A stretch of DNA of 48,129 bases from a virus: IMG/VR virus record IMGVR_UViG_3300027782_002495, positions 1-48,129 of that record. One strand, given 5' to 3'. A program made the position numbers and the translations under genes. Under the pieces are notes generated by a model that was not told where the DNA came from, made no database searches, and saw nothing but the letters and a program-made list of their open reading frames with translations. Shown piece by piece: positions 4,633-43,250 of the stretch; the stretch's first letter is position 1, and every line of letters begins with the position of its first letter.

Positions 4633-5045
4633 ACCAATCATATAAACTATTAAAACTTAATACAGGTGACGATATAGTTTGTAAAACTGAAGAAAATTTA
4701 TCATTAAAAGATAAAGAAAGTATTTTCGTACAAGACCCTATGGTGCTTAATCAAATTAGAGTACCTTACGGATCCGGTATAATGGAATCTTATACTTTAT
4801 CTCCTTGGATGGCAATGACCGAAGATGATTTTTATGAAATACCTGTACGTTATATTATTGTAGCTGCAGATATTAAAGAAAATCTTAAAGATAATTATAT
4901 AAAGTATGTACAAAATCGTAAAGAAGCAGAACTAAATGCAGAATGCGAAGATGAAGAAGAATCTGATAACTCTGAAATTGAAAAAGAACCTAACTATGAA
5001 AACAGCCAAAGCACCATTAAACGTCGCGGAAGACTTGTCCACTAA
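4629..5045 (+). CDS. Sm-like (LSM-fold) phage protein with acidic tail
   Basis: A 138-residue protein. The first ~95 residues start with YKLLKLNTGDDIVCK, the pattern 'KL.(S/T)G(D/E)(E/D)I.A' seen in many small phage proteins with an Sm/Hfq-like beta-barrel. They continue with VQDPMVLNQIR and a tyrosine-rich LSPWMAMTEDD. The last ~40 residues are strongly acidic (DEEESDNSEIEKE), probably disordered. It overlaps uvsW by four bases and the predicted gp55 start by about 50 bases. A second protein of the same kind lies at 40957-41253. RNA binding is plausible from the fold but not shown. The assignment rests on pattern similarity only. Confidence 0.5.
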   Translation: MNQSYKLLKLNTGDDIVCKTEENLSLKDKESIFVQDPMVLNQIRVPYGSGIMESYTLSPWMAMTEDDFYEIPVRYIIVAADIKENLKDNYIKYVQNRKEAELNAECEDEEESDNSEIEKEPNYENSQSTIKRRGRLVH

Positions 5046-39217: not shown

Positions 39218-39641
39218 AGATATTTTTCACATTGATTATCCGGGATATACTCCACTAGAAGTAACCCTCGTACAACCTGACGACTTTTTAAAAGTCAGAG
39301 AAACGCTTACACGTATAGGTGTGGCATCTAGAAAAGACAAAGTATTATATCAATCATGCCATATTCTACATAAACAAGGTAGATATTTTATTGTACACTT
39401 TAAAGAATTATTTGCGTTAGATGGCAAATCCGCTGATTTAACAGAGAACGATTTACAAAGACGTAACACAATTGCCAAGTTGCTAATAGATTGGGGATTG
39501 GTACAAGTTATTAGTCCAGAGAAATTTACTGATTTGGCGCCATTATCGCAGATCAAAGTAATCGCATTCAAAGATAAAAATGAATGGTCTCTACAAACAA
39601 AATATAATATTGGTAAGAAAAAACAACCTACAGAACAATAA
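39210..39641 (+). CDS. regA: Translational repressor RegA
   Basis: A 143-residue RNA-binding protein (T4 122) that blocks ribosome access to many early phage mRNAs. The ATG at 39210 overlaps the gp62 stop, and AAAGGTGG lies upstream. Blocks FLKVRETLTRIGVAS, YQSCHILHKQGRYFIVHFKELFALDG (landmarks LYQSCHILHKQG and HFKELFALDG) and RRNTIAKLLIDWGL match RegA closely. In T4, RegA is followed by gene 43; here a late promoter and a structured region follow. Confidence 0.95.
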   Translation: MAEDIFHIDYPGYTPLEVTLVQPDDFLKVRETLTRIGVASRKDKVLYQSCHILHKQGRYFIVHFKELFALDGKSADLTENDLQRRNTIAKLLIDWGLVQVISPEKFTDLAPLSQIKVIAFKDKNEWSLQTKYNIGKKKQPTEQ

Positions 39642-39645
39642 TCTG

Positions 39646-39653
39646 TATAAATA
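39646..39653 (+). promoter_or_regulatory. Late promoter upstream of the structured region
   Basis: Intergenic TATAAATA. The expected transcript start, a few bases after the element, falls at about 39658-39661, exactly where the structured GC-rich segment begins. Confidence 0.8.
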
Positions 39654-39657
39654 ATTA

Positions 39658-39815
39658 TATCCCCGGGATGGGAAACGCAGCAATCGGTGTGGGCTGTATA
39701 AACCAGAAGCCGAACTAATTTAAGTCCCACTACCTTGGGAACGTCTAAAGCTGGCACAACGTATGGTGCCCCTGTAGTCAGTAAGCAGGATTAACGCTAT
39801 GCCTTCGGGGTAGCA
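39658..39815 (+). ncRNA. Candidate structured RNA or long structured 5' leader
   Basis: About 160 bases without a convincing gene, clearly richer in G+C than the flanks. Possible stems are GGCT 39692-39695 with AGCC 39708-39711, TCCCA 39725-39729 with TGGGA 39736-39740, GGCAC 39753-39757 with GTGCC 39766-39770, and CCTG 39771-39774 with CAGG 39786-39789. A UUCG-capped hairpin joins GCTA 39796-39799 to TAGC 39811-39814. The first bases, CCCCG (39661-39665), can instead pair with CGGGG (39806-39810), closing the whole element and competing with the last hairpin. It then runs into a weakly structured A/T segment and the AGGAG of the next gene. A 16-codon ORF (39668-39718) lacks a ribosome site. 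I do not recognise a named RNA family. Confidence 0.45.
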
Positions 39816-39846
39816 AAATTATAAACTCGCTTAATAGGAGAACTAT

Positions 39847-40077
39847 ATGTTTTACGCAAACATGGCTATCGATTCAATTCAAGACGCCAAAATCAACTTC
39901 CTCAAACAAACAGTCAAGGAAGATTCCCTTCAAAAACCCCTAGTTGATTTTGTAGAAGCACAACGTGTTTTTACAAAGCAAGTTGCTAAGTCTGCCAACG
40001 ATGTAATGAACATTGCTTCAGAAACAGTTGCAAATACAATTAGTGGTATAACAAATAAAAAGGGAGAATCAAAATGA
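39847..40077 (+). CDS. Small helical protein upstream of Hsp20
   Basis: A 76-residue protein with AGGAG eight bases upstream; it overlaps hsp20 by four bases. Apart from the N-terminus it looks like amphipathic helices (KINFLKQTVKED, LVDFVEAQRVFTKQVAKSANDVMNIASETVANTI). The second helix resembles phasin-like proteins, but the match is weak. Cotranscription with a chaperone suggests a structural or stress-related role; function unknown. Confidence 0.75.
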   Translation: MFYANMAIDSIQDAKINFLKQTVKEDSLQKPLVDFVEAQRVFTKQVAKSANDVMNIASETVANTISGITNKKGESK

Positions 40078-40598
40078 CATTTGTTAAAGATGTATTTGGG
40101 CGTGATATGTTCAAAGACTTTGATAAATTATATGTAGGCTTTGACGATCAATTTAATAAGATGGCAAAGATTCATGATGATCTAACAAAGAGCATTCCAA
40201 ACTATCCACCTTACAACATTAAGAAAACTGGCGATAACACTTATGTTATTGAAATTGCAGTCGCTGGATTTGCAAGACAGGATATTGAAATTGAACTTGA
40301 TAATGGTAAGATGATTATTAAGGGCAACGTACACAATACAGAAGCAGAAGAAAGCTTCTTATTTAAAGGTATTGCTAACAGAGCATTTACCCGTACATTT
40401 GCACTTGAAGATCAAATTGAAGTTAAAGATGCTGAAATGTTTAATGGTATGCTTAAAGTATGTTTGGAAAGAATTATTCCAGAACATAAAAAACCCAAGA
40501 AAATTGAAGTTAAAGATGCCGATGCAAGCACAAAGCCTGCAAAGAAATCTAAGCCGCAATTTCTTACAGAAGATCCTGTAGAAGATCGGGTGCTATAA
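40074..40598 (+). CDS. hsp20: Small heat-shock protein, Hsp20/alpha-crystallin family
   Basis: A 174-residue ATP-independent holdase. The alpha-crystallin domain spans ~45-145: PPYNIKKTGDNTYVIEIAVAGFARQDIEIEL (landmarks YVIEIAVAGF and DIEIEL), GKMIIKGN, IANRAFTRTFAL and the GMLKVCLERIIPE strand carrying the usual G-x-L. This is close to IbpA (EIAVAGF, IA.R.F.R.F.L). A Lys-rich C-terminal tail follows. Hsp20 is widely conserved in aquatic T4-like phages, where a scaffold or capsid-assembly role has been suggested. Confidence 0.93.
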   Translation: MTFVKDVFGRDMFKDFDKLYVGFDDQFNKMAKIHDDLTKSIPNYPPYNIKKTGDNTYVIEIAVAGFARQDIEIELDNGKMIIKGNVHNTEAEESFLFKGIANRAFTRTFALEDQIEVKDAEMFNGMLKVCLERIIPEHKKPKKIEVKDADASTKPAKKSKPQFLTEDPVEDRVL

Positions 40599-40783: not shown

Positions 40784-40872
40784 AATTCATTAGAGCTTTT
40801 ATTAAAATCGTACATGAAGTACGACAACGATTGGCTACTCGCAGGAATAAATATCCTGGAACGGGTTCATAA
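40780..40872 (+). CDS. 30-residue basic protein
   Basis: ATG overlaps the previous stop (ATGA). The predicted peptide starts MKFIRAFIKIVHEVRQRLATRR and ends YPGTGS (landmarks FIRAFIKIV and RQRLATRR). It is an amphipathic, Lys/Arg-rich helix and has a UUCG hairpin just after its stop. Translational coupling and the following hairpin favour a real gene, but size makes this uncertain. Confidence 0.5.
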   Translation: MKFIRAFIKIVHEVRQRLATRRNKYPGTGS

Positions 40873-40876
40873 AAAC

Positions 40877-40896
40877 ACTAGGGCTTCGGCCCTAGT
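40877..40896 (+). terminator. UUCG-capped hairpin, likely terminator or mRNA 3' end
   Basis: Perfect 8-bp stem ACTAGGGC / GCCCTAGT with a TTCG tetraloop, typical of T4-like phage terminators and stability hairpins. The following sequence is TGTCC, not a T run, so termination may be partial. Confidence 0.6.
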
Positions 40897-40908
40897 TGTC
40901 CAATAGTA

Positions 40909-41407: not shown

Positions 41408-41481
41408 CGCGGATTAGTGAAATGGTATCACAAAGGACTCATAATCCTTAGTTCCTAGTTCGACTCTGGGGTCCGCAACCA
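41408..41481 (+). tRNA. tRNA-Met (anticodon CAU), with encoded CCA
   Basis: A 74-nt cloverleaf. Acceptor CGCGGAT pairs with GTCCGCA except for an initial C1-A72 mismatch; D stem GTGA/TCAC; anticodon stem AAGGA/TCCTT around CTCATAA (anticodon CAT); T stem CCTAG/CTGGG with loop TTCGACT; then A73 and CCA. The C1-A72 mismatch is an initiator (fMet) trait. The anticodon stem lacks the full run of three G-C pairs, and position 11-24 is T-A, as in elongators. An Ile-type CAU tRNA (lysidine-modified) is also possible. The next start codon is only two bases after CCA. Confidence 0.88.
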
Positions 41482-42605: not shown

Positions 42606-43250
42606 TTACTTCCCCAATAGACTATCTACTTTTGCTTCAGCAATATTCAATCTAGCTTCGATTGCATCTAATGCCGGATCTGATTGTGCTGCAACCGATG
42701 CTGCAATTTCTGCATGTACTTCTGGAGCAACAACTTCACCTGTAGCTGCAGCAATAATTTCAGCAATTGCGGCACCTGCTTCTGCTGCTACTTCTGGTGC
42801 TGGAGCTGGCATTTCAGCAACTGCTTCTGTAATTGCTGCAGTAATTGCTACTGGATCAGTAACAACTTCTGGGTCTGCAGCAACAACTGCGGCAACGGCT
42901 GCAGCTACGATTGCAGCAACTTCTGCATTCTCAATTGCAACTGTTTCAACTTGTGCTGTAACAACATCTGCCACAATATCAGCTGCTGCTGGAACATCTG
43001 AACTTGCGGATAATGCAACAACTTCTTCAACTGCTACAGGAGCATTATCTGCTGGTGCGGCCACAATAGCTTGAATTTGTTCTTGCGTTTTAACGGTAAC
43101 TAAATGATTAACGGTAACTTCTACCAATGTTAATCGCGCATCTAATTCTTCTAACTCTGTAGGGATATCGCTATTAGCATGAACACCTGTTAGTGCTGCT
43201 AATTTAGCTTCAACGGCTACCAATCTTACTGCTAGGTCTTCGAATCTCAT
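42606..43250 (-). CDS. Ala/Val/Glu-rich coiled-coil protein
   Basis: A 214-residue protein with AAAGGAG before the ATG. Low-complexity centre (long Ala/Val runs such as VAAIVAAAVAAVVAA). Three similar heptad segments flank it: LAVRLVAVEAKLAAL near residue 6, LDARLTLVEVTVNHL near 36 and IEARLNIAEAKVDSLL at the C-terminus. These look like trimeric or dimeric coiled-coil ends, so a fibrous virion or scaffold role is possible. The GC content is higher than its neighbours because of GCN codons. No function recognised. Confidence 0.8.
   Translation of the reverse strand: MRFEDLAVRLVAVEAKLAALTGVHANSDIPTELEELDARLTLVEVTVNHLVTVKTQEQIQAIVAAPADNAPVAVEEVVALSASSDVPAAADIVADVVTAQVETVAIENAEVAAIVAAAVAAVVAADPEVVTDPVAITAAITEAVAEMPAPAPEVAAEAGAAIAEIIAAATGEVVAPEVHAEIAASVAAQSDPALDAIEARLNIAEAKVDSLLGK

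Follow-up and report, generated by a model that had tools for sequence, protein, structure and literature searches.

The region described here is located in a virus record of IMG/VR (IMGVR_UViG_3300027782_002495), and the window is the whole stretch taken from that record, 48,129 nt read on one strand. The region lies between the gene encoding RegA and a late operon composed of a small open reading frame (ORF) and a gene encoding an Hsp20 small heat-shock protein. The features of the locus are the following:

ending at 39641: RegA (PF01818, E 2e-48)
39646..39653, + strand: T4-type late promoter octamer TATAAATA, identified by sequence and kept in position in most freshwater relatives
39655-39846, + strand: untranslated leader of the late operon
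39658..39670, + strand: 5'-terminal hairpin UAUCC-CCG-GGAUG, compared across 23 distinct 5' ends
39677..39713, + strand: H-type pseudoknot, with stem S1 at 39677-39681/39693-39697 and stem S2 at 39684-39688/39709-39713
39725..39789, + strand: module D, three hairpins (D1, 39725-39740; D2, 39753-39770; D3, 39771-39789)
39796..39814, + strand: hairpin I, GCUAU-(bulged G)-CC-UUCG-GG-GUAGC, supported by a covariance model and pair counts
39826..39840, + strand: putative thermosensing helix II, CUC-(bulged G39829)-CU / AGGAG, supported by motif occurrence
39836-39840, + strand: Shine-Dalgarno AGGAG, inside helix II
39847..40077, + strand: 76-aa ORF, the first gene of the operon, with no family match
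40074..40598, + strand: Hsp20 (alpha-crystallin) small heat-shock protein (Pfam PF00011, E 5e-16; PHROG 432, E 1e-41)

The 76-aa ORF received no support from Pfam, PHROG or NCBIfam, and the label 'phasin-like', a by-eye resemblance that no model of these collections backs, was rejected. In one clade this ORF is situated between the leader and hsp20; elsewhere it is absent and the leader directly precedes hsp20. At the end of the operon, a strong UUCG hairpin (ACUAGGGCUUCGGCCCUAGU, 40868-40900) is possibly a terminator or a processing site. Downstream of the operon there is a single tRNA-Met gene (CAU anticodon, 41408-41481), and a low-complexity 214-aa ORF rich in alanine and valine occupies the - strand at 42606-43250, opposite to its neighbouring genes. 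In cyanophage S-CREM1, a glnA (glutamine) riboswitch is annotated within the regA-hsp20 interval (L214:797-895), on the other strand, and the interval may thus be a place where RNA elements tend to accumulate.

An earlier sequence-only reading had proposed a late promoter, a G+C content above that of the flanks and the lack of a convincing gene, and all three observations held. The octamer TATAAATA stands just 5' of the 5'-terminal hairpin in most freshwater relatives, as found by leader comparison; taken alone, it occurs in the window at chance frequency (12 found, 9.3 expected). The transcript is expected to start a few bases 3' of it. The G+C content was 0.47 at 39650-39799 versus 0.31-0.39 on the upstream side. 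Approximately 190 bases between the octamer and the 76-aa ORF are free of + strand ORFs, with none of 25 aa or more inside the region, and the indels in the leaders of relatives are out of step with any coding frame. The several stems proposed by the same reading received a divided answer: the predicted fold of 39661-39823 was not stabler than that of shuffled sequence, 70 of 200 shuffles equalling or surpassing it (z = -0.32), and comparison among relatives did reveal structure. Since plain folding gave no signal, the structural support comes entirely from that comparison.

Relatives were gathered in several ways. Megablast against GenBank phages returned no match to the region, and blastn against the same phages matched only the 3' 45 bases of the leader, in S-PRM1 and Marine virus AG-345-P14; in both, the gene behind the matched bases encodes an Hsp20 approximately 30-34% identical to that of the window. 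An Hsp20 protein search of IMG/VR yielded 80 loci whose leaders were read, revealing a modular 5' part and a constant stretch covering the 50 bases ahead of the start codon. IMG/VR was also scanned blindly for AACTCGCTTN{2,12}AGGAG, which gave at least 120 contigs; among those listed, the large majority carried Hsp20 or its preceding small ORF directly behind the pattern and, directly before it, a hairpin of varying sequence around YGCC...GGGR. Ten named phages (cyanophages, pelagiphages and a methylophage) were inspected directly, and helix II could be recognised in all ten. The element was present at 269 of 272 phage hsp20 loci selected by protein, the other three being cut at contig edges. 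One relative (L068:2670-2750) has an extra, G+C-rich hairpin (CCCCAGCAUGGGG) that separates hairpin I from helix II. The hsp20 genes of SAR11 (L434-L486, Pelagibacteraceae chromosomes) have a different two-hairpin leader ending in AAUCGCUUAAGGAGG, apparently another ROSE-like subtype.

The UUCG hairpin noticed in the sequence-only reading is real and corresponds to hairpin I. The G bulging from its 5' strand, where the outer stem gives way to the inner C-G pairs, is invariant, and the stem of the hairpin covaries. In 17 hand-picked sequences, whose alignment was not fitted to the covariance model, 22 cells were changed on both sides of a pair versus 6.2 in shuffles. The 92 distinct rows of model hits, an alignment that was fitted to the model, contained 189 double-changed cells versus 55 in shuffles; there, double changes affected seven of the eight pairs, and sliding the partners by one column abolished the signal. 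In HTVC115P, on a by-eye reading, the bulge appears to be kept and the inner pairs to be changed.

Concerning extent, the sequence-only reading was right that the region is structured and missed its most diagnostic part, since the element runs past 39815 into the ribosome-binding site at 39826-39840. Helix II hardly varies there, so that covariation cannot prove it and it was tested by occurrence. For this count, hsp20 starts were picked by protein and Shine-Dalgarno only, and the 40 bases before each start were inspected. The motif UYGCU preceded 104 of 111 distinct phage hsp20 starts, versus 12 of 236 control starts from these loci. Of the other seven hsp20 starts, three had CUGUCU, whose pairing displaces the bulge; the last four belonged to phages that have the small ORF before hsp20, and their leader is situated farther upstream or past the contig end. 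The base between CUY and CU was G in all 122 cases. Natural variants preserve the pairing: CUUGCU in Melnitz and CUUUGCU in HTVC008M represent the U/C alternative of the ROSE motif. Exposure of the Shine-Dalgarno as predicted with ViennaRNA was 0.32 versus 0.47 in other genes at 25 C (p 4e-9). In the melting computed with the same program, the rise was not sharper than for control genes. It was equally flat for the validated leader of E. coli ibpA, and computed melting thus cannot decide on a thermal response.

The element is also specific to hsp20. Among 18 phage records (48-229 kb), the pattern CTCGCTTN{0,12}AGGAG was present as a single copy in 17 and absent from HTVC008M; the single copy in Melnitz lies apart from hsp20 and is due to chance. 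The covariance model R2 matched 99 of 100 locus sources and hit all 18 whole phage records, 16 of them with E<0.01 and all at the hsp20 leader; in HTVC115P (E 0.015) and HTVC008M (second best, E 0.28) it was at chance level. Across 240 alphaproteobacterial genomes, R2 gave four hits at E<=0.001, each of them before hsp20. UYGCU within 40 bases was likewise found for the Hsp20 relatives of 74 out of 80 bacterial genomes, and several bacterial relatives, for example L425 (a 251-kb contig), also have the bulged-G hairpin; one kind of hsp20 leader is therefore shared by phages and aquatic bacteria.

These observations lend good support to one of the two functions that the sequence-only reading had offered, a switch-like leader of the Hsp20 operon, given that the element tracks hsp20 or the small ORF preceding it and has the anatomy of a ROSE element. 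That reading had named absent covariation, absent conservation or a coding explanation as grounds against its proposal; upon testing, covariation and conservation were both found, and no coding explanation applied. We consider the region to be the 5' leader of a phage late hsp20 operon whose 3' end is probably a short ROSE-type RNA thermometer. In Pseudomonas, the short ROSE-like thermometers of ibpA consist of two hairpins with a U(U/C)GCU motif, a bulged G and an unpaired AUG, and the P. aeruginosa thermometer became locked when the corresponding G39 was deleted (PMC3669281); a definition of the ROSE-like class is also given in PMC11182007. The leader has the two to four hairpins of the class with a stable hairpin upstream of the sensor, lies in a small heat-shock 5' UTR, and presents U(U/C)GCU against the Shine-Dalgarno in the 3'-proximal hairpin with a bulged G opposite.

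By analogy with these elements, we infer that helix II sequesters the ribosome-binding site in the cell and opens thermally. In the cold, CUCGCU would pair with the Shine-Dalgarno AGGAG around the bulged G and hide the site from ribosomes, hairpin I acting as the stable partner that would separate and position helix II. Warming, or another strain that opens this weak helix, would free the Shine-Dalgarno and allow the 76-aa protein and the Hsp20 chaperone to be made. Speaking against this picture, a second register, GCUU with GGAGC, is also possible in many marine phages, and for a late phage gene in aquatic hosts the signal needed may be one other than heat.

A different mode of control by the same leader is a real possibility, if short of probable, namely self-repression, in which the phage Hsp20 would bind to the leader of its own mRNA and prevent translation as long as it is not titrated by unfolded protein, so that temperature would act only indirectly. 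E. coli IbpA represses its own mRNA via the 5' UTR, for which R93 and an aromatic residue at position 34 are needed (PMC10474464). The arginine equivalent to R93 was kept in all 86 phage Hsp20 sequences that could be parsed (54 could not), the R103 column was invariant in alignment A5, and an aromatic residue occupied the position equivalent to IbpA-34 in 140 of 140 phage Hsp20 sequences. Hairpin I, with its invariant bulged G, has the look of a recognition site. However, the arginine is common in alpha- and gammaproteobacterial Hsp20 and need not mean RNA binding. Self-repression is compatible with the thermometer and would constitute a second possible layer.

Upstream of the constant 3' end, the leader is modular. 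All 23 distinct 5' ends pair locally with an invariant GGGAUG even though the partner sequences differ. The sequence-only reading had instead paired the first bases with 39806-39810, in competition with the last hairpin, and this could not be upheld, as CCCC is present in just three of the 23; the long-range CCCC/GGGG switch was rejected as not conserved. The H-type pseudoknot was found in 16 of 16 divergent leaders, in hand-delimited regions, with the sequences of both S1 and S2 replaced and the pairing kept. Its score was reached by at most 1 of 300 shuffles in 13 of the 16 leaders and by 11 of 300 in the window.

Module D has conserved unpaired stretches and loops, CUACCUU and CAGUAAG, and no Rfam match. 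D2 showed compensatory changes (9 double-changed cells versus 2.7 in shuffles), data that do not bear on D3, which was fixed by the search pattern; in L139, D3 reads CCCG/CGGG. Kissing of the D1 loop CUU with the D3 loop AAG is possible, and in longer variants of the module (L116, L393, L395) the first loop, ACCUUA, is complementary to the last, UAAGGU, which suggests such an interaction. Among IMG/VR copies of module D, 76 of 79 precede the hsp20 element and the other three stop at contig ends. In one relative (L516, module D copy at 4649-4668, - strand), the module directly follows the late promoter and a longer hairpin replaces hairpin I.

The conserved unpaired stretches, the covarying helix and the restriction to the front of the hsp20 element would suit a composite sensor, in which the pseudoknot, module D or both form a ligand-binding aptamer working with the ROSE-like lock. 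There is a precedent for structured leaders at such genes, as cyanophages are reported to carry the manA RNA motif ahead of ibpA and of further genes (PMC2864571). We nevertheless regard a composite sensor as unlikely: the pseudoknot keeps its shape with freely replaced sequence, which argues against a binding pocket, most phages lack module D, and no Rfam riboswitch matches the region. The manA motif (RF01745) itself was rejected, with no match in the window or its relatives and one 7.6-bit hit elsewhere in S-PRM1. It is similarly doubtful that freshwater T4-like phages possess a tandem device, in which module D, perhaps together with the exchangeable pseudoknot, was added as a second sensor before the ROSE-type thermometer; if they do, chaperone synthesis late in infection would integrate temperature with another signal, for example a metabolite or a phage protein.

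As for the 5'-terminal hairpin and the pseudoknot, our guess is that they protect the 5' end or help folding. That the leader as a whole is a constant protective structure, serving only to limit translation or stabilise the mRNA without any sensing, seems decidedly unlikely. The two structures do start a few bases after the expected transcript start, and a promoter-like box stands shortly before hairpin I itself in several marine phages, yet neither the invariant anti-Shine-Dalgarno with its bulged G nor the tie of the element to hsp20 would be explained. A free small RNA, the other function offered by the sequence-only reading, or an unrecognised gene could draw on the region's own late promoter and high G+C, but is very improbable, because the conserved parts extend through the Shine-Dalgarno to the start codon with no terminator in between, no + strand ORF is present, and leader length changes out of frame.

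Returning to the ROSE-type thermometer, the best Rfam match of the region among 4227 families was ROSE_3 (RF02523), whose two hairpins match hairpin I and helix II of the window in the alignment. Scores were below the ROSE_3 gathering threshold of 43 bits (16.3 for the window and 28.6 for L139, the best relative), and no family came above threshold in the region in Rfam searches at gathering and permissive cut-offs. Some sub-threshold ROSE_3 hits in other relatives were located elsewhere in the genome and were discarded as chance. By its anatomy, the element appears to be a variant of the ROSE-like class and not a member of Rfam ROSE_3, and we infer its function by analogy. The model R2 annotates the element, and thereby the start of hsp20, in phage contigs where Rfam finds nothing.

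Genes encoding Hsp20 are widespread in cyanophages and other T4-like aquatic phages. Their control is not addressed in the literature found, and leaders or promoters go unmentioned in the paper that described the small heat-shock proteins of cyanophages (PMC3827213). The openly searchable literature yielded no account of a ROSE-like element in a phage. If the ROSE-type lock is real, it would be the first of its class in phages and a group-wide one rather than a set of single cases, and it opens to direct test whether marine and freshwater phages use their own mRNA to match the late supply of chaperone to the temperature of the water. Three phage thermometers are named in a 2024 survey (PMC11182007), namely lambda cIII, SP-beta blyA (fourU) and the Caudoviricetes sigma70 (fourU). 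These are likewise temperature-responsive leaders in phage genomes; in contrast to the element described here, none is ROSE-like or located on a heat-shock gene, and they are single cases, not family-wide.

When compared to Pseudomonas ibpA, the phage leader is alike in being a small heat-shock 5' UTR with two hairpins, a stable hairpin I followed by a hairpin II that pairs U(U/C)GCU with the Shine-Dalgarno, a critical bulged G, and the AUG outside. On the phage side, in contrast, a T4-type late promoter drives the leader, the first gene may be the 76-aa ORF, hairpin I has an invariant bulged G and a YGCC/GGGR core, and the clade of the window adds a long structured extension upstream. In the E. 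coli ibpA leader, a known ROSE element (PMC3669281), the upstream hairpins are longer, as is the upper stem of the terminal hairpin, whereas its core, CUCGCU and AGGAG with the bulged G, is identical to that of the phage leader.
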